From contig PMUP01000041.1 of NCBI GenBank assembly GCA_003166865.1, forward strand, positions 81,503-145,502: a stretch of DNA of 64,000 nt, written 5' to 3'. The position numbers and the translations under genes were made by a program. Below, in pieces: positions 43,598 to 52,079 of the stretch. The stretch's first letter is position 1. Every line of letters begins with the position of its first letter. Under the pieces are notes generated by a model that saw only the letters and a program-made list of their open reading frames with translations, ran no database searches and had not been told where the DNA came from. The stretch is from Bryobacterales bacterium (GTDB taxonomy: Bacteria; Acidobacteriota; Terriglobia; Bryobacterales; Bryobacteraceae).

Positions 43598-44422
43598 TTA
43601 TCGCAAAGCGGCGCTGGCCAAAATGCTCAGCTTTTCCCAAGTTGGAACGCGAATGCGTTTCTCCAGCACGTCGAAATTGGACCGCTCAATTCTGGCGAGC
43701 AGACGCCGGTAGATTTCGATCAGCGCCCACAGCGATGGACGACTGCGTGGGTGCACCGACGCGATCAGGGGCCGCGATTGGTCGTAATAAGCGCGCGCGC
43801 GCGCGGCCTCGAAGCTCATCAGCCGAACGAAGCGCTCGTCATGCGTGGCAAGGTCAGCCCCGAATTTGCTGATGTCTTCCAGCGGAATGTAGATGCGGCC
43901 GTTCTGCTGGTCCTCGCGCACGTCGCGCAGGATGTTGGTCAACTGAAACGCAATCCCGCACTTCTCAGCCAACACCAGCGCTTCGGGAGAATCAAAACCG
44001 AAGATGTGAATAATAGTGAGACCAACCACGCTCGCCACTTGGTAGCAGTAGCGGTACAACTCATCGAAGGTTTGGAGCTGCTTGGGCTGCAAGTCCGAAC
44101 TGACTCCCTCGATCATCTGGTAGAAGTATTCGCGCGGGATGCGGTAGTGCTCGACTGTGTCGTGAAAGGCCGGCCAGAGCAGGTTTTCACCGTACTGGCC
44201 CTGGAGGGCGAGATCCAGATCGCGCCGCCAACGCTCAATGGCTTCGCGCGAGGCCCCCTCGCCCTCGCTGATATCGTCGCAATAGCGCATGAACGCGTAA
44301 ATGGCGCACATGGCGTCGCGCTGTTCGCGCGATAGCAGCAGGAAGGAATAATAAAAGTTGCGGGCCCGCGTGCGAGCAATGCGCCGCGAGAAGGCATAAG
44401 ACGCCTTCAGAGTGCGTTCCAC
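43598..44422 (-). CDS. hpnD: Presqualene diphosphate synthase HpnD
   Basis: 274-residue squalene/phytoene synthase-family enzyme. Two Asp-rich motifs: MRYCDDISEGE and ILRDVREDQQNGRIYIP, the first sitting in RNFYYSFLLLSREQRDAMCAIYAFMRYCDD. HpnD makes presqualene diphosphate from two farnesyl diphosphates; HpnC then makes hydroxysqualene. Overlaps hpnC by 16 bases. Confidence 0.9.
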   Translation of the reverse strand: MERTLKASYAFSRRIARTRARNFYYSFLLLSREQRDAMCAIYAFMRYCDDISEGEGASREAIERWRRDLDLALQGQYGENLLWPAFHDTVEHYRIPREYFYQMIEGVSSDLQPKQLQTFDELYRYCYQVASVVGLTIIHIFGFDSPEALVLAEKCGIAFQLTNILRDVREDQQNGRIYIPLEDISKFGADLATHDERFVRLMSFEAARARAYYDQSRPLIASVHPRSRPSLWALIEIYRRLLARIERSNFDVLEKRIRVPTWEKLSILASAALR

Positions 44423-45321
44423 AGGCTTCCAACCAGTAGCTGCACGCGTTCGAACTTGGAAATGGCCGGACGCCGCGCCAAAACATTATAGTTTTGCTGT
44501 TCGATTTTTTCGAGCACGCGCATGCCACCGCGGCTGAACAGCGCGAGGTCGAACGCCAAGCGCCGGTCCACCGTTTTCACCAGCGGCAGGCCTTCCAAAA
44601 AGAGCTTCCGCGCAACATCAACGGCGTCACGCATCACGCCCTGAAACGCAGGATTGAACTTGCCTGCGCGCAAATCCTCCACCGTGTAGCCGTGCCGCGC
44701 CAAAACGTCGAGCGGCAAATACAAGCGATCTTTTTCGAGATCCACCGTTACATCCTGCCAGAAATTGGCGAGTTGCAGCGCGGTGCAGGTGGCGTCCGAC
44801 AGGCGGTCGCGCTCGGCATCTGAATAACCGCATAACCGCAGCACCAGACGCCCGACCGGATTCGCCGAGCACCGGCAGTATCCGAACAGCTCGTCCCAGT
44901 CGGCATAACGAGTAACGCGCTGGTCCTGTTCGAAAGCGTGGATCAGATCGGAAAAAAGCTGCTTCGGCAGACTGTACTTGTGAACCGTGCCTTCCAAGGC
45001 GACAAACACCGGATGCTGCGTGCGCCCGGCGTACATTGCTTCCAGCTCCTCGCGCCACCAGCCGAGCAAGCGCAGGCTCTCGACCGTATCGCCGATCTCG
45101 TCGCCCAAGTCGTCCGCCCAGCGGCAGAACGCATAGACGTTGTAGAAGTCCTGATGCAAGCGCTTCGGCAAAAGAAAACTGACGACGTGGAAATTCTCGT
45201 AATGATGAGTCGCCAGCCAGCGCGTGTACTGCTCGGCCTGGACTTTTGTATAGGTGCCGCTGAGCGCCTCGGCCGAGTTAACGTAGTCCTTGGGCGCGAG
45301 GAGCGTTGCTTGTTGGGACAC
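44407..45321 (-). CDS. hpnC: Hydroxysqualene synthase HpnC
   Basis: 304 residues from GTG at 45321. Two Asp-rich motifs: YAFCRWADDLGDEIGD and FWQDVTVDLEKDRLYLP. HYENFHVVSFLLPKRLHQDFYNVYAFCRWADD is typical of HpnC, which ends in a basic C-terminus. The GTG shares its last base with the TAG of the upstream dehydrogenase (TAGTG), showing coupling. Partner of HpnD; the third enzyme HpnE is not in the window. Confidence 0.9.
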   Translation of the reverse strand: MSQQATLLAPKDYVNSAEALSGTYTKVQAEQYTRWLATHHYENFHVVSFLLPKRLHQDFYNVYAFCRWADDLGDEIGDTVESLRLLGWWREELEAMYAGRTQHPVFVALEGTVHKYSLPKQLFSDLIHAFEQDQRVTRYADWDELFGYCRCSANPVGRLVLRLCGYSDAERDRLSDATCTALQLANFWQDVTVDLEKDRLYLPLDVLARHGYTVEDLRAGKFNPAFQGVMRDAVDVARKLFLEGLPLVKTVDRRLAFDLALFSRGGMRVLEKIEQQNYNVLARRPAISKFERVQLLVGSLWNAL

Positions 45322-46349
45322 TACGGTATGATTGCGGTCTTCATGTGACCGTTGTGGCTCATCAAGTGCCGCATTACTTCCAGCAGGTTCGTCAGCGGTT
45401 CCACGCGATTGACGAAGTCGTGCGCGGTGATCACGCCGCGGCTCACGAAATCCAGCGCTTTGCGGATGTGCGTGGGGGTGTGATGGAAACTCGCTTTGCA
45501 GGTAATTTCCGAATAGTGCAGCCACTGGGTGTCCAGTTGAATGTAGCTGTCGTTGGAACAACCGCCGAAGAAATTGACCGTGCCCCCGCGTCGCAGGGAT
45601 TTAGCGGCGGTCTCCCAAACTTCCGGATTGCCCACCGCCTCAATGGCGACGTCGGCTCCCCGGCCGCCGGTGAGTGCGCGGACTTTTTCCACGGTCTCGC
45701 CCGGGTCGCCGGAAATCACCAGCTCATCCGCGCCCATGGCCGAGGCGCGATCCAATTGCGTCTTGCGCCGGCCCAGCGCGATCACCCGCGCGCCGTATGC
45801 TTTGGCTAGCCGGACGAACATCAGGCCGATGGGCCCCAAGCCGATCACGGCCACGGTGTCGCCGGCGCGCACCGGAGTCTCGTCAATCCCTCGCAGGACG
45901 CAGGCCAGCGGCTCAACCAGAGCAGCGTCCTGGTAAGTAACGTGGTCCGGCATCTCGTACATATTCCGCTCGACAATGCGGGACGGAATGCGAATATACT
46001 CCGCGTACGCGCCGTTATTGAAGAGCAAATCCTCGCAAAGATTCGGGCTGTCGCGCTTGCAATAGAAGCATTCCAGACAGGGCGCGGAATTCGCCGCGAC
46101 CACGCGTTGCCCAACTTTGAAGCCCCGCACTTTCTTACCAATCGCGACAATATCCCCGGCCAGTTCATGCCCGAACAGCGCCGGCGGAACGATCATGCGG
46201 GCGTGATAACCTCGCCGGAACACCTTAACGTCGGTCCCGCAGGTTAGCGCCGCTTGTACACGTACCAGTACGTCGCCATCTCCGATGCTTGGTACGGCCA
46301 CAGACTCGATCTGCAAGTCTTCTTTGCCATACAGCACGGCGGCTTTCAT
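45321..46349 (-). CDS. Zinc-binding MDR dehydrogenase in the hopanoid cluster (second)
   Basis: 342 residues from the ATG at 46349. Catalytic zinc: ALTCGTDVKVF and GHELAGDIVAIG; structural zinc: PCLECFYCKRDSPNLC; Rossmann: VAVIGLGPIGLMFVRLAKAYGARV. It sits between hpnG and hpnC with tight spacing, so it belongs to the transcription unit. A sorbitol/threonine dehydrogenase relative; its substrate could be an activated hopanoid side chain or unrelated sugar. No evidence separates these. Confidence 0.85.
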   Translation of the reverse strand: MKAAVLYGKEDLQIESVAVPSIGDGDVLVRVQAALTCGTDVKVFRRGYHARMIVPPALFGHELAGDIVAIGKKVRGFKVGQRVVAANSAPCLECFYCKRDSPNLCEDLLFNNGAYAEYIRIPSRIVERNMYEMPDHVTYQDAALVEPLACVLRGIDETPVRAGDTVAVIGLGPIGLMFVRLAKAYGARVIALGRRKTQLDRASAMGADELVISGDPGETVEKVRALTGGRGADVAIEAVGNPEVWETAAKSLRRGGTVNFFGGCSNDSYIQLDTQWLHYSEITCKASFHHTPTHIRKALDFVSRGVITAHDFVNRVEPLTNLLEVMRHLMSHNGHMKTAIIP

Positions 46350-46381
46350 TTGCTTCTCCACTAAGACCACGGCTCTCCCAT

Positions 46382-47491
46382 TCAAGACAACCTCTGGGGC
46401 TGCACTATAATTTTCAACGATTTAGGCTCCGGATGCAACGCCAGTTCGATTCCATTCCGGATCTCGTTGAGCGCAAAGCGGTGCGATATCAAGTCCTCTA
46501 CCGGCAGTGCGCCGCTGAAAACCAGGTCAGCGGACTGCTTCTGAAGATCGACTGAGGCGCTGTAGGAGCCAAAAATGGCGCGCTCTCCCACGCAGATGTC
46601 GGCGCCGGACAGCTCCACGCGCTCCTGATGCGAAGTTTGGGCGAAGAGCAGAATCCGGCTGCCCGGCCGAGAATACCGGACGGCTTGCTCCACGATTCCG
46701 GGCGCGGACGCGGCCACGATCACCGCATCGGCCCCGCGGCCGCCAGTCATTTCCATGATCCGTTCCCCCAGCCCCGGATCGCGCGGATCCAGGGCCGCGG
46801 CCGCACCAAAGCGCAGGGCCAACTCCCGCCGGTAAGGCATGCTGTCGGTAACCACCATGGTAGCGCCGGAGCGGCGGGCTAGCATCGTGAACAGCAGACC
46901 GATCGGCCCTTGGCCCAGGATAACCACCACGTCCTCGGGTTGGGGGTCTAACTGGACCACGCCCTTCAGGCAGGTGTTCACCGGCTCGACAAAGCAAGCG
47001 CGATCATACGAGACGCCGTCCGGGATCTTTTCCACCCCACGCCGGGCGATCCAATCCATGACGCGCACATATTGCGAGAAGCCTCCGCCGGCTGGCTCGT
47101 ACCCCGCCGTTACGCCAACTTTCTTGTAGACCGGGCATTGCGCGTACAGCTTGTGGCAGCAATAGAAGCATTCACGGCACGGGATGTGATGAAAGACGAT
47201 CACCCGATCGCCGGCTGAGAATCCACGCACACCAGCGCCGGTCGAGGCCACCACCCCCGCGGTCTCATGGCCAAAGATTCTCGGGGGCGCAAGCAGGTTG
47301 TATTCAATCTTCTTGAGATCGGTATGGCAGATGCCGCAGCTTTCCACTTGAATCAGGAGTTCGCCCGGCCCGATGGCAGGCGTCGGAACCTGCTCCACGG
47401 ACACTCTGCTGTCGCCTGTGTAAACCGCGGCTCGCATCGTGGGGAGCACGGGGGCGGGCGCGGCGACTACATCAGAATCGAGCGTCGGCAA
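46382..47491 (-). CDS. Zinc-binding MDR dehydrogenase in the hopanoid cluster (first)
   Basis: 369 residues: ESCGICHTDLKKIEYNLL, GHETAGVVASTGAGV, structural zinc CRECFYCCHKLYAQC, and Rossmann VVVILGQGPIGLLFTMLARR. Related to the next gene (45321) but longer at the N-terminus (PTLDSDVVAAPAPVLPTMRAAVYTG). Start overlaps the end of hpnG by 20 bases. Confidence 0.85.
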   Translation of the reverse strand: MPTLDSDVVAAPAPVLPTMRAAVYTGDSRVSVEQVPTPAIGPGELLIQVESCGICHTDLKKIEYNLLAPPRIFGHETAGVVASTGAGVRGFSAGDRVIVFHHIPCRECFYCCHKLYAQCPVYKKVGVTAGYEPAGGGFSQYVRVMDWIARRGVEKIPDGVSYDRACFVEPVNTCLKGVVQLDPQPEDVVVILGQGPIGLLFTMLARRSGATMVVTDSMPYRRELALRFGAAAALDPRDPGLGERIMEMTGGRGADAVIVAASAPGIVEQAVRYSRPGSRILLFAQTSHQERVELSGADICVGERAIFGSYSASVDLQKQSADLVFSGALPVEDLISHRFALNEIRNGIELALHPEPKSLKIIVQPQRLS

Positions 47492-48155
47492 GAAAATCTC
47501 CCAGCGCCTGAGCGGCGCGCTTCGTTCTCTTATTCAATTTAATCAGTTCTGGAAACACCGCGAGAGGTCTCCGCATAGCGGCCGCAAAAATCCTGGCGCG
47601 GCTAAAGCGCCCGTCCAAACGCCTCATTTGATTAAACTCCAGCGGAAAAGTTTCATCGCAGGTGTCGGTCACTACGCGGACGGCATAAAACGGAACCTTC
47701 CACTCGCGGGCGCGCATAGCCACGGCAGCCGCCTCCATCTCCACGGCATCCGCACCCGACTTGCCAAGTTCAGTTTTTTCGGCGGCGGTGGATACTACGC
47801 GGTCCATGGAAAGCAATTTCCCGGTTTTGAAAGACTTCTGACTGGCTGGCGCGAGCGCCGGCGCAACTCCTACCACTTCGGTGGCGACAAAAATGTCACA
47901 GGCGTGGAGTGAAGGCTGCAACCCTCCACAAAATCCGATGCTGATTAAGCCATCCATGCCTTGGTGCTCTCTCACTACGTCCACCGCGGACCCGGCCAGT
48001 TTCGGTCCCGGACCGTTCGCCACCATCACCACCCGGACCCCATTCAACCGTCCCACCCGGGCGAAATCCAGCGGCCAATCGACTCGCGCGACCTCTTCAA
48101 CATGACCGAGCAAGCCTTCCAGCTCGCGGCGCTCCGACGCTACAAATACGAGCAA
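47472..48155 (-). CDS. hpnG: Hopanoid-associated nucleosidase HpnG
   Basis: 227 residues of the purine/uridine phosphorylase fold. GLISIGFCGGL, the DAVEMEAAAVAMRAREW block with the catalytic Glu, and VRVVTDTCDETFPLEFNQM are the visible marks. HpnG removes adenine from adenosylhopane to give ribosylhopane. Clustered with hpnA, shc and hpnCD. HpnH, which makes adenosylhopane, is not in the window. Confidence 0.82.
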   Translation of the reverse strand: MLVFVASERRELEGLLGHVEEVARVDWPLDFARVGRLNGVRVVMVANGPGPKLAGSAVDVVREHQGMDGLISIGFCGGLQPSLHACDIFVATEVVGVAPALAPASQKSFKTGKLLSMDRVVSTAAEKTELGKSGADAVEMEAAAVAMRAREWKVPFYAVRVVTDTCDETFPLEFNQMRRLDGRFSRARIFAAAMRRPLAVFPELIKLNKRTKRAAQALGDFLADARF

Positions 48156-48170
48156 TTACACGTAACCCGG

Positions 48171-49145
48171 CTATACATAACCATTGCTGCGAAACCAATC
48201 GACCGCGCGTTTCAGCGCGCCATCGACGGGCCGCGGATTGAATCCCAGATCGCGCTTCGCTTTGTCGAGCGAAACGAACATTTTCTTGCGTGCCATCTTC
48301 ACCGCGTCGATCGGCGCCCGCGGCTCATGGCCGGTCAGGTTGGCCCAGCCGGTGCTCGCCAGGCCCGCGGCGTACGCCACCGCATACGGAATGCGCCAGC
48401 GCGGAGCTTTTCCTCCGCTGATGGCCGCCAGACGCGTCAGGATCTGCTGCAGCGTCAGATTCTCGCACCCCAGGATATAGCGCTCTCCGCTCTTACCGCG
48501 CTCGCAGGCGAGCAAATGGCCTTCCGCTGTGTCTTCTACATCCACCAGGTTCAATCCAGTGTCGACGAATGCCGGCAAATCGCCCTTGAGGTAATCGACG
48601 ACAATCTTTCCCGTTGGCGTCGGCTTGAAGTCGTGATCGCCGACCGGCGCCGTGGGATTCACAATCACCACGGGAAGGCCGGCGCGCGCAAATTCCATGG
48701 CGACTTGTTCGGCTTGAAACTTCGATCGCTTATACGCGCCCGCCATTTCTTCCAGATGAACCTCGCTGTCCTCGTCGCCGGCCCGGTCCGCCGGCATGCC
48801 AATGCAACCCACCGTGCTGGTATAAACCACGCGCTCAACGCCCGCATCGCGCGCGGCCGTCAACAGATTCCGCGTGCCTTCCACGTTGGAGCGATAAAGC
48901 TCGGAGGGATCCTTGGCCCACAGACGATAGTCCGCCGCGACGTGATAGACCACGGCGCAGCCTGCGACAGCGCGTTCCAGCGATTCAGGATCGCGCAGGT
49001 CGCCCAAGACCACTTCCCCGTCCAGCTCCCGCACTCTGCTCGTGTTTCTTACCAAGGCCCGCACTCTCTCCCCGCGTGCAAGCAATTTTTTGGCGACGTG
49101 CCACCCCAGGAAACCGGTCGCCCCCGTTACCAGCGTCGGCCTCAC
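48171..49145 (-). CDS. hpnA: Hopanoid-associated sugar epimerase HpnA
   Basis: 324-residue SDR: TLVTGATGFLGWHVAKKL (Rossmann), VVYHVAADYRLWAKDP, STVGCIGMP with the Ser-Tyr-Lys triad partly as AYKRSKFQAE, and FVDVEDTAEGHLLACERG near the substrate site. Typical HpnA; function in hopanoid side-chain modification is inferred from clustering. It starts 4 bases downstream of shc. Confidence 0.88.
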   Translation of the reverse strand: MRPTLVTGATGFLGWHVAKKLLARGERVRALVRNTSRVRELDGEVVLGDLRDPESLERAVAGCAVVYHVAADYRLWAKDPSELYRSNVEGTRNLLTAARDAGVERVVYTSTVGCIGMPADRAGDEDSEVHLEEMAGAYKRSKFQAEQVAMEFARAGLPVVIVNPTAPVGDHDFKPTPTGKIVVDYLKGDLPAFVDTGLNLVDVEDTAEGHLLACERGKSGERYILGCENLTLQQILTRLAAISGGKAPRWRIPYAVAYAAGLASTGWANLTGHEPRAPIDAVKMARKKMFVSLDKAKRDLGFNPRPVDGALKRAVDWFRSNGYV

Positions 49146-49149
49146 ACCA

Positions 49150-51093
49150 TCAATGTCCGTTCGATCCGGACTTGATCTTTAGAAATGCGTTCAGCGCCAG
49201 TAGCGGGAACGCATTCCGGTACAAGTGGTAACACAGGTAGAAGACCTGGGGAAATCCGGTTCCCGTGGCCAGCTCTTCGTCCCACGTTCCATCGTTCTTT
49301 TGCGTTCGAATCAAATATTCAATGCCGTCGTGCAAGCTGGAGCTGGTGGTGTCGCCACCCGCCAGCAGCGCGAGAACCGCCCAGGCCGTCTGCGAAGGAG
49401 TGCTGCCCGCGGCCACGAAACTTTTCCGCCGGTAGCTCTCGCAACTCTCGCCCCATCCGCCGTCAAAATTTTGAATGGAGCGTACCCACTCCAAGCCCCG
49501 CTGGACGTAGGCTTCGCGGTCGCTCACGCCGGCCGCCGCTAATCCACGCAAGGCAAGAAACGTGCCGTAGACGTAATCGACGCCCCAGCGTCCGTACCAG
49601 CTCCCGTCTTCTTCTTGGGCGCGAATCAAATATTGCACGCCCTTCTCGACTCCCTGATGCGAGCGATTGTATCCGTGAGCGCACAAGGCCTCGAGCACGC
49701 GCCCGGTAATGTCCGGACAGGTCGGATCGAGCATGGCGTTGTGATCGGCAAACGGAACGAAGCTCAGCGGCCGCCAATCGTTATCCACGTCGAACGCCGC
49801 CCAGCCACCGTCTTTGGACTGCATGTCGAACAGCCATCGAATGGCGCGATGTTCGGAGGCTTGCTGGTCTTCCGATCGTGACGCGCTAGACCGGTTCAGG
49901 GCCAGCAGCACCATGGCGGTATCGTCGATGTCCGGATAGAATTCATTGGCGAACTCGAAATACCAGCCCGATGGCTCCGTCTTCGGACGTTTGACGGACC
50001 AGTCGCCTTTGCGGCGCACTTCCTTGGTCAACAGCCAATCCGCCGAGCGGCGCAGCGCATCGTGCGGCGGTTCGGGGGCCTCGCCCAACGCGAAGGCGGC
50101 AATCGCGGTATCCCAAACCACCGAGAAGCACGGCTGGAAGAAGAAGCGCTCGCCGTCATTCACCATCAACCGGTCGAACTGCCGTTGCGCTTCCAAACGC
50201 TCCGGAGAATCGGGCGGATAGCCCAGCAGATCCAGCGCCATGATCACGTACATCATGGGCGGATAAATCGCAGCGACACCATCCGTGTGTTGCGTGTGCT
50301 CCAGCATCCATTGCCCGGCCTTGCGAATGGCGCGCTGGCGGAGGGACTTGGAGCCATATTTTTCCCAGAGCTTCAGAAAAATGTCGAGCCGCAGGAAAAC
50401 ATTGCGCCAGGTGAAACTTGCCCGATCCGGCAAAAAGCCCATGTTCCCGTCGGCGGCTTTCCCATCCGCGATGAACAACTCCTTGAGATCGAAGCCCGCG
50501 GGAACCGGACGCCGCGGGTTGAAGGCGTGCACTATCGCCAGCGGAATTACGATCGCGCGCGTCCAGGACGACATTTCGTAGATGAAGTTGCGGAACAGCA
50601 CCATCTCTGGAGGAATCGACGGCGCTTGATCGCGCGGAAACAGATCGAACAGACTCAGGTTGACCTTCACGTAGCTGTTGGCGGCCTGGATGCCGCCCAG
50701 CGCGAGGATTCGTTCCCGCGCCCGCGCCAGCCGCAGATCGTTATAGTCGAGACCGGCCAGCTTCAAGGCAAAATACGCCTTCACCGTCGCGCTAAGATCC
50801 GTGGGCCCCTTCGGATAAATGTTGAAGCCGCCATCCGGCAATTGCCGCTGGAGAATCGATTGCACGGCCTTATCGAGCAACGGGCGCGTGGGCGGATTCC
50901 AAACGCCATTCTCCGGCGGATGCAGCCAGAGCTGCAAAAGGATGTAATCGGATTCGAGCGTGGTGTCGGCGGTGAGCAATACCCGCCAGTAACCCGCCTG
51001 GTCTTGTGTACGCGCGAAATACTCGGTGGTTTTGCGCGTGGCTTGCGAAGCCCCATCTACAAGTGCGCCGGCAACTTGCAACTTCGGGGTCAT
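49150..51093 (-). CDS. shc: Squalene-hopene cyclase
   Basis: 647 residues, normal for SHC. DxDD acid motif at 388-391 (YPDIDDTAMVLL) starts the cyclisation; QW repeats such as QLPDGGFNIYPKG, QSKDGGWAAFDVDND, QEEDGSWYGRWGVDYVYGTFLAL, QNFDGGWGESCESYR and QKNDGTWDEEL are visible. Membrane-bound cyclase giving hopene or diplopterol. The start overlaps ispH by 4 bases. Confidence 0.96.
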   Translation of the reverse strand: MTPKLQVAGALVDGASQATRKTTEYFARTQDQAGYWRVLLTADTTLESDYILLQLWLHPPENGVWNPPTRPLLDKAVQSILQRQLPDGGFNIYPKGPTDLSATVKAYFALKLAGLDYNDLRLARARERILALGGIQAANSYVKVNLSLFDLFPRDQAPSIPPEMVLFRNFIYEMSSWTRAIVIPLAIVHAFNPRRPVPAGFDLKELFIADGKAADGNMGFLPDRASFTWRNVFLRLDIFLKLWEKYGSKSLRQRAIRKAGQWMLEHTQHTDGVAAIYPPMMYVIMALDLLGYPPDSPERLEAQRQFDRLMVNDGERFFFQPCFSVVWDTAIAAFALGEAPEPPHDALRRSADWLLTKEVRRKGDWSVKRPKTEPSGWYFEFANEFYPDIDDTAMVLLALNRSSASRSEDQQASEHRAIRWLFDMQSKDGGWAAFDVDNDWRPLSFVPFADHNAMLDPTCPDITGRVLEALCAHGYNRSHQGVEKGVQYLIRAQEEDGSWYGRWGVDYVYGTFLALRGLAAAGVSDREAYVQRGLEWVRSIQNFDGGWGESCESYRRKSFVAAGSTPSQTAWAVLALLAGGDTTSSSLHDGIEYLIRTQKNDGTWDEELATGTGFPQVFYLCYHLYRNAFPLLALNAFLKIKSGSNGH

Positions 51094-52079
51094 ACGGAAG
51101 CGATGGTAGTCAGCTTTAGCGCCGATCGCTCCAGGTCCGCCGGAAGATGGAAACGTACATCTTCTTCCTTCAGTTCCATCTCTTCCATGTAATCAAAAGC
51201 AAACTTTGTCTCAAGCGATTGGATTAGTTCCTGCACCAGATTTTCCGGAGCCGATGCGCCGGCGGTAACCGCCACCGTCCTCGCGCCATCCAGCCACGCC
51301 GGATTCACTTCCGTGCTGTCGTCCACCAGATAGGCTGGAACGCCTTCGTTCTGGCAAACTTCTACTAAACGGCGCGAATTCGAGCTGTTCTGCGAACCTA
51401 CCACCAGCAGCACATCCGTCAGTGGCACAACAGCTTTGACGCCCAACTGCCGGTTTTCGGTTGCATAGCAAATGTCCTGGGTTTTCGGACCCTTGATGGC
51501 CGGGAAGCGCTCCTGCAAGCGCGCCACGATGTCCTTGGTTTCGTCCAGGCTGAGCGTGGTTTGCGTGAGATACGAGATCTTGGACGGATCTTTCACCTGC
51601 AGCCGGTCGACATCGGCCACCGACGAAACCAGAATCGTGAATTGCGGCGCCTCGCCCAACGTTCCGATCACCTCGTCGTGCCCGGCATGGCCGATCAGCA
51701 CGATGGTGTAATCCTGGCGCGCAAACTTCACCGCTTCCAGATGGACCTTGGTGACCAGCGGGCAGGTGGCGTCGATCACTTCGAGCTTGCGCTCCTTGGC
51801 CTCCTGCCGCACCGCCGGAGACACGCCGTGCGCACTGAAGATCACGCGCGCGCCCTCAGGCACTTCGCTTAGTTCTTCGACAAAAATCGCGCCGGCCTGC
51901 CTAAGCTCATCCACCACGTGGCGGTTGTGGACGATCTCTTTACGAACATATACAGGCGCGCCATACAGGTTGAGAACGATCTTCACCACATCGATCGCCC
52001 GAACCACTCCGGCACAAAAACCACGCGGGCGCAGGAGGATGATCTTCTTCATGGGACTGGCAGTGTGGGCTTCGGCCAT
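51090..52079 (-). CDS. ispH: 4-hydroxy-3-methylbut-2-enyl diphosphate reductase
   Basis: Last MEP-pathway enzyme, giving IPP and DMAPP. 329 residues; the three cluster cysteines are Cys22 (RPRGFCAGV), Cys106 (DATCPLVTK) and Cys204 (DICYATENRQ). GSQNSSNSRRLVEV and AGASAPENLV complete the family. The ATG at 52052 (MKKIILLRPRG) is an alternative start. First gene of the hopanoid unit, linking precursor supply to squalene and hopene. Confidence 0.96.
   Translation of the reverse strand: MAEAHTASPMKKIILLRPRGFCAGVVRAIDVVKIVLNLYGAPVYVRKEIVHNRHVVDELRQAGAIFVEELSEVPEGARVIFSAHGVSPAVRQEAKERKLEVIDATCPLVTKVHLEAVKFARQDYTIVLIGHAGHDEVIGTLGEAPQFTILVSSVADVDRLQVKDPSKISYLTQTTLSLDETKDIVARLQERFPAIKGPKTQDICYATENRQLGVKAVVPLTDVLLVVGSQNSSNSRRLVEVCQNEGVPAYLVDDSTEVNPAWLDGARTVAVTAGASAPENLVQELIQSLETKFAFDYMEEMELKEEDVRFHLPADLERSALKLTTIASV

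Follow-up and report, generated by a model that had tools for sequence, protein, structure and literature searches.

A fixed pair of zinc dehydrogenases in the standard hopanoid operon of Bryobacterales

The operon and its pathway

We identified a run of eight tightly packed genes, ispH-shc-hpnA-hpnG-MDR1-MDR2-hpnC-hpnD, on the minus strand of a 64,000-nucleotide stretch of DNA from a Bryobacterales bacterium (the window; C104:81503-145502 of genome G000, an assembly of 6.67 Mb in 107 contigs that is 95.9% complete). This is the usual form of the hopanoid operon in Bryobacterales (Acidobacteria subdivision 3), and hpnE and hpnH are found at other sites of the genome. MDR1 and MDR2 encode zinc-dependent medium-chain dehydrogenases/reductases (MDR); close relatives and several further families of Acidobacteria also carry this pair as a standing part of the operon. 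We tentatively propose that the two enzymes act on the sugar-derived C5 side chain of hopanoids, including the reduction that would turn ribosylhopane into bacteriohopanetetrol (BHT). The genes were assigned by their best matches to NCBIfam profiles, with bit scores compared to the curated cut-offs, and by Pfam domains:

51090 to 52079, minus strand: ispH, 4-hydroxy-3-methylbut-2-enyl diphosphate reductase, first in the run (NF002189, 453 bits, cut-off 444; TIGR00216, 324 bits; PF02401)
49150 to 51093, minus strand: shc (hpnF), squalene-hopene cyclase (TIGR01507, 610 bits, cut-off 431)
48171 to 49145, minus strand: hpnA, hopanoid-associated 'sugar epimerase' of the short-chain dehydrogenase/reductase family (TIGR03466, 481 bits, cut-off 368)
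47472 to 48155, minus strand: hpnG, hopanoid-associated nucleoside phosphorylase/nucleosidase (TIGR03468, 131 bits, best match, below the cut-off of 187; PF01048)
46382 to 47491, minus strand: MDR1, zinc MDR dehydrogenase matching ug1 by position (PF08240 and PF00107, conserved motifs, synteny)
45321 to 46385, minus strand: MDR2, zinc MDR dehydrogenase of 354 aa matching ug2 (PF08240 and PF00107, conserved motifs)
44407 to 45321, minus strand: hpnC (TIGR03464, 352 bits, cut-off 250; start codons)
43598 to 44422, minus strand: hpnD, presqualene diphosphate synthase (TIGR03465, 244 bits, best match, below the cut-off of 278.6)

The profile matches bear out the gene order, coordinates and tight spacing given in an earlier note on this DNA, with HpnG and HpnD assigned as best matches below their cut-offs. 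Every joint is either an overlap or a gap of at most 15 nt. By their coordinates ispH and shc overlap by 4 nt, shc and hpnA are 4 nt apart, and hpnA and hpnG are 15 nt apart. The overlap of hpnG with MDR1 is at most 20 nt, that of MDR1 with MDR2 is 4 nt with the longest start, and that of hpnC with hpnD is 16 nt. The true start of MDR1 may be ATG 47437, downstream of TTG 47491. The 384-aa hpnC frame is over-long at the N-terminal end, where 80 codons overlap MDR2, and hpnC most likely starts at GTG 45321, which gives a 1 nt overlap with the MDR2 stop codon.

The earlier note described the cluster as lacking hpnE and hpnH and called for a search of the whole genome. This holds inside the window. 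However, the genome search found both genes above their cut-offs: HpnE lies on the same contig approximately 35 kb from the cluster (C104:168530-169822, 442.9 bits, cut-off 283), and HpnH is on another contig (C18:60480-61433, 549.8 bits, cut-off 225). Loss of either gene was therefore rejected, as was substitution for HpnE by one of the dehydrogenases in this genome. Two HpnJ genes also score above their curated cut-off (C72:3937-5337 and C101:5529-6929). A missing hpnE or hpnH would have implied an odd pathway, but with HpnE, HpnH and two HpnJ genes present the hopanoid pathway of this genome is ordinary in content. HpnJ acts on BHT-derived lipids (PMC5462960). Given this gene content the organism probably makes BHT and so would need a BHT-forming enzyme. 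The same paper, in its available portion, gives subdivisions 1 and 3 as being without hpnK (PMC5462960).

The gene arrangement itself is already known. Two genes called ug1 and ug2 were published without a function as members of the acidobacterial bacteriohopanepolyol (BHP) clusters A and C (Sinninghe Damste et al. 2017, PMC5462960, cited here and below from the portions available). These clusters contain hpnA-hpnG-ug1 and ug2-hpnC-hpnD(-hpnE), and ug2, which is about 350 aa long, is often annotated as a Zn-binding alcohol dehydrogenase. The window conforms to the subdivision 3 cluster, with ug1 after hpnA-hpnG, a ug2-type gene before hpnC-hpnD, and hpnE and hpnH in the genome. Unlike clusters A and C, both parts here stand in a single operon after ispH-shc, and hpnE and hpnH are elsewhere; the same paper describes hpn genes as more scattered in subdivision 3. 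On ug2 in subdivision 3 the published account differs between passages, one having it missing from cluster A and another having it in all of subdivisions 1 and 3. Its available portion names no protein family for ug1, no cofactor split and no joint ancestry. The cofactor split, the full zinc sites and the joint old descent of MDR1 and MDR2 are new in the present analysis, and the remaining interest of the locus is as a source of candidates for an open pathway step.

Conservation of the dehydrogenase pair

Two samples were used. A contig scan with MDR1 matched at least 593 stretches, of which at least 537 encode a relative, and the best 80 of these 537 were fetched. They are mostly labelled Bryobacterales, Solibacter or other Acidobacteria/Terriglobia, with three Acidobacteriaceae and one record labelled Bordetella; having been picked by likeness to MDR1 they are close relatives and informative on this group only. 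The second sample consists of 149 Acidobacteriota genomes, 36 with shc (shc+) and 113 without (shc-), in which genomes, families and loci carry our own G, f and L numbers.

Among the best 80 of 537 loci, counting those whose contig extends far enough, MDR2 follows MDR1 in 71/71. The pair is preceded by hpnG in 70 of 75 loci and by hpnA in 70 of 71, it is followed by hpnC in 67 of 69 and by hpnD in 50 of 60, and shc accompanies it in 59 of 61. Genes in these loci, and in the clusters read from the sampled genomes, were labelled by BLAST matches to the proteins of the window genome, which can overlook an HpnG or HpnD that is short or diverged. Thus the dehydrogenases, which the earlier note took to be inserted into the cluster, belong to its regular complement. 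Absence of hpnE and hpnH from the cluster is common: hpnE was near MDR1 in 0/80 fetched loci, and hpnH is upstream of MDR1 in 31 of the 61 whose contig reaches far enough. Among the sampled genomes the run extends to hpnE in at least four of family f2 (G084, G121, G073, G023) and in G095. One public metagenome-assembled genome labelled Bordetella parapertussis (L194) carries a Bryobacterales-type hopanoid cluster, and its label is evidently wrong.

The cluster is cut in eight f2 genomes (G036, G049, G061, G094, G103, G112, G130, G147), where MDR1 and MDR2 are 11 kb apart in G130 and more than 100 kb apart or on different contigs in the rest. MDR1 stays with hpnG in all eight and with hpnA in seven (not G130). 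MDR2 adjoins hpnC-hpnD in the five regions that were read (G049, G061, G094, G103, G130) and is no more than about 2 kb away from HpnE in G036, G112 and G147. A 639-aa frame in G112 suggested a fusion of HpnG with MDR1; this was rejected, as the coordinates put the two genes in different frames.

Both proteins consist of an ADH_N and an ADH_zinc_N domain and carry every catalytic Cys/His/Glu/Glu and all four structural Cys residues expected of a zinc MDR. In MDR1 the catalytic set is C55/H75/E76/E169 and the structural set C105/C108/C111/C119; in MDR2, numbered from ATG 46349, the sets are C37/H61/E62/E146 and C91/C94/C97/C105. These ligands are invariant in the fetched copies (80/80 MDR1, 73/73 MDR2). 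Among NCBIfam profiles the two proteins match generic zinc-dehydrogenase models only, well below cut-off, and the named MDR equivalogs (threonine dehydrogenase, scyllo-inosose dehydrogenase, idonate dehydrogenase and others) gave no score above cut-off for either protein. The best scores were 168.5 against a cut-off of 450 for MDR2 and 155.2 against 458.35 for MDR1, and since these are so far below the cut-offs the substrate cannot be read from the named equivalogs. Among solved structures both proteins match 4ej6 best, a putative zinc dehydrogenase for which no function is given. For MDR2 the second match is an NADP(H)-dependent ketose reductase with the same two-domain zinc MDR architecture (PDB 1e3j, E=8.7e-40), and MDR1 resembles the L-threonine 3-dehydrogenase type of zinc MDR (E=2e-36 to 2d8a).

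The two proteins differ consistently in their cofactor motifs. In Rossmann folds generally, NAD use is indicated by an acidic residue closing strand beta-2 and NADP use by a basic residue next to that position. MDR1 has an NAD-type motif, with Asp216 ending beta-2, and MDR2 has an NADP-type motif, Gly-Arg-Arg-Lys. The beta-2 end is acidic in 80/80 fetched copies of MDR1 (79 Asp, 1 Glu) compared with 0/73 of MDR2, and Arg comes next in 73/73 MDR2 copies. In the wider set it is acidic in 20/20 MDR1 and 1/18 MDR2 sequences, the exception being G037. However, the split is not kept in the distant pairs of families f45 and f47, where MDR2 looks NAD-type.

Such opposite motifs, together with the joint descent of the pair described below, would suit a redox relay in which a side-chain stereocentre (e.g. 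C-33 or C-34) is inverted or rearranged. MDR1 would oxidise by means of NAD+, MDR2 would reduce the resulting ketone with NADPH, and BHT itself would come from a different enzyme, for instance HpnA. Both proteins are similar to zinc MDRs of the polyol/threonine dehydrogenase type, whose substrates are secondary alcohols. Additionally, of seven hpn clusters from genomes without the close pair (L137-L143), all but L140 have a gene labelled hpnA, and HpnA was proposed for the conversion of ribosylhopane to BHT in 2017 (PMC5462960). Yet there is reported evidence that Burkholderia cenocepacia can make BHT without hpnA, and some BHT producers are reported to lack the gene (PMC5462960). The absence of opposite motifs in the f45/f47 pairs and the separation of the genes in the eight cut clusters also speak against a relay, which we regard as unlikely. 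We know of no unusual BHT isomer from these organisms.

Distribution and ancestry of the pair

Close MDR1 orthologues (E <= 1.3e-107) are found in 20/36 shc+ genomes compared with 0/113 shc- genomes. Close MDR2 orthologues are found in the same 20 genomes and in one shc- genome, G132, which has a lone MDR2 of 52% identity. The MDR2 clade as a whole occurs in 29/36 shc+ compared with 4/113 shc- genomes, the 29 being counted from trees except for G036, G112 and G147, which were placed by 51-52% identity; weaker unfetched matches such as that of G019 were counted as absent. By family it occurs in 7/13 shc+ and 3/51 shc- families (Fisher p=0.00025, uncorrected for kinship), with the mixed families f3, f26 and f48 counted as shc+. 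These families include ones in which the genes are outside the hpn cluster. For comparison, hpnH occurs in 35/149 genomes of the sample.

One shc+ genome, G007 (L136), has shc and hpnH, and HpnG, HpnC, HpnE and a close MDR were not found in it although it is listed as 100% complete. Its contig ends 2.4 kb past hpnH with no hpnA seen there, and loss cannot be told apart from missing sequence.

HpnE is above cut-off in 15 of the 20 genomes with a close MDR1 orthologue. Among the other five (G103, G037, G085, G113, G122), all but G037 carry a weak squalene-synthase-like gene at another place in the genome, below cut-off in each case; G037 has none besides its HpnD. The last four of the five are the f28 genomes (L080, L081, L082, L084), which are shc+ and have the order hpnA-MDR1-MDR2-hpnD, so that HpnD adjoins MDR2; HpnC and HpnE were not found in them, and the weak squalene-synthase-like match lies elsewhere in three of the four.

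The frequent presence of HpnE, including in the window genome, does not support the suggestion in the earlier note that one dehydrogenase replaces a missing redox step. A related explanation is that MDR2 (ug2) serves the squalene part of the pathway (hpnC-hpnD-hpnE), for instance by dealing with a by-product or supplying a missing reduction. The 1 nt overlap of MDR2 with hpnC in the window and the company that MDR2 keeps in the cut clusters are in line with this, as is the f28 order, which stands without HpnC or HpnE. An association of ug2 with hpnC-D-E was also suggested in 2017 (PMC5462960). However, HpnC, HpnD and HpnE already cover the squalene steps (Pan 2015, as cited in PMC5462960), most genomes with close MDR1 have HpnE or a weak squalene-synthase-like gene, and the MDR2 clade is present in all five f47 genomes although HpnC and HpnE were not found there. 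A squalene role for MDR2 is thus improbable.

In phylogenetic trees MDR1 and MDR2 form two separate branches. One tree was thinned by hand, with three long-branch rows and the rows of 14 loci removed. Because distant pairs from families f32/f60 and f45/f47 branch in both, the pair is old and has stood in several settings. The earlier note held that identical pairs in organisms without hopanoid genes would count against a hopanoid role. Distant adjacent pairs do occur in four shc- genomes (G078, G132, G055, G098), but a close pair in 0/113, so this objection applies in a weak form only; the G098 members are on long branches and the MDR1-like gene of G055 is in no tree. The MDR1 relatives of four shc- loci (L129, L130, L131, L133) adjoin a similar protein of about 265 aa, which in L130 is a DeoC/LacD-family aldolase, a hint of sugar-type substrates for the wider MDR family.

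These distant pairs are compatible with a polyol or amino-alcohol catabolic pair that is carried in the operon and has no hopanoid substrate. The distant pair of G132 is near a peptide-type transporter, and the close pair of G066 (L093) lies away from hpn genes and adjoins a proline dehydrogenase. Against such passengers stand the near-constant slot between hpnG and hpnC in the fetched loci, with tight or overlapping joints, and the association with shc even where the genes are unlinked to the hpn cluster. We consider a catabolic pair as improbable as a squalene role.

A candidate role in side-chain formation

The enzyme that converts ribosylhopane to BHT 'has not yet been established' as of late 2025 (PMC12583986, cited from the portions available), and our literature search, which covered its sources in part, turned up no enzyme for this step. 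In the scheme we propose, HpnH joins adenosine to diploptene, HpnG takes off adenine to give ribosylhopane, and the MDR pair would carry out redox chemistry on the opened ribose, including reduction of the aldehyde end to give BHT. That MDR1 and MDR2 serve in this way, as the fixed zinc dehydrogenase pair of the operon acting on the C5 side chain, is a tentative assignment, although one to which we give more weight than to any of the alternatives above. It draws on a zinc pair standing beside hpnG, of which one member is NADP-type and has a solved relative that is an NADP(H)-dependent ketose reductase. The suggestion in the earlier note that one of the dehydrogenases acts on ribosylhopane or another side-chain intermediate fits the adjacency of hpnG, the association with shc and the NADP-type motif of MDR2. 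The substrate itself, like the direction of the reaction and the division of work between the two enzymes, is something we infer. By cofactor MDR2 would be the likelier reductase; by gene linkage it would be MDR1, which is NAD-type and adjoins hpnG.

Several observations weigh against a side-chain role. An HpnG match without a close MDR1 orthologue is seen in 15 of 36 shc+ genomes, nine of which (f32, f47) have distant MDR members outside the hpn cluster, and a sixteenth, G007, lacks a match to HpnG as well. The pair therefore does not occur in all shc+ genomes of the phylum sample, as a ubiquitous BHT-forming enzyme would, and non-orthologous replacement is possible in those without it. In the cut clusters MDR2 accompanies the squalene genes and not hpnG. 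In the four f28 genomes the pair directly follows hpnA, hpnG is not beside it, and HpnG-like matches elsewhere are weak (59 to 72 bits). The distant pairs in shc- genomes leave room for an ancestral substrate other than a hopanoid. A zinc polyol MDR usually works on a ketone or secondary alcohol and not on C1 of an aldose. Cell-free reduction in Methylobacterium reportedly used NADPH, whereas the MDR that adjoins hpnG is NAD-type. Finally, the available portion of a study of Alphaproteobacteria reports no MDR or other further candidate genes near the hpn clusters, its further suspects being HpnA, HpnB, HpnL and HpnM only (PMC12583986), so producers there would manage without the pair.

A more specific form of the side-chain proposal is that, for this part of the Acidobacteria, both dehydrogenases jointly account for the missing step to BHT, as a two-dehydrogenase system of opposite cofactors that converts ribosylhopane to BHT and may set a side-chain stereocentre. 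This is doubtful, if somewhat less so than the stereocentre relay. If true, MDR1 and MDR2 would be the first genes assigned to the BHT-forming step. Widely used molecular fossils derive from hopanoids, a class of membrane lipids, and a conserved gene pair that adjoins hpnG across a large group of soil bacteria and has cofactor motifs of opposite type provides two named candidate genes for the formation of BHT.

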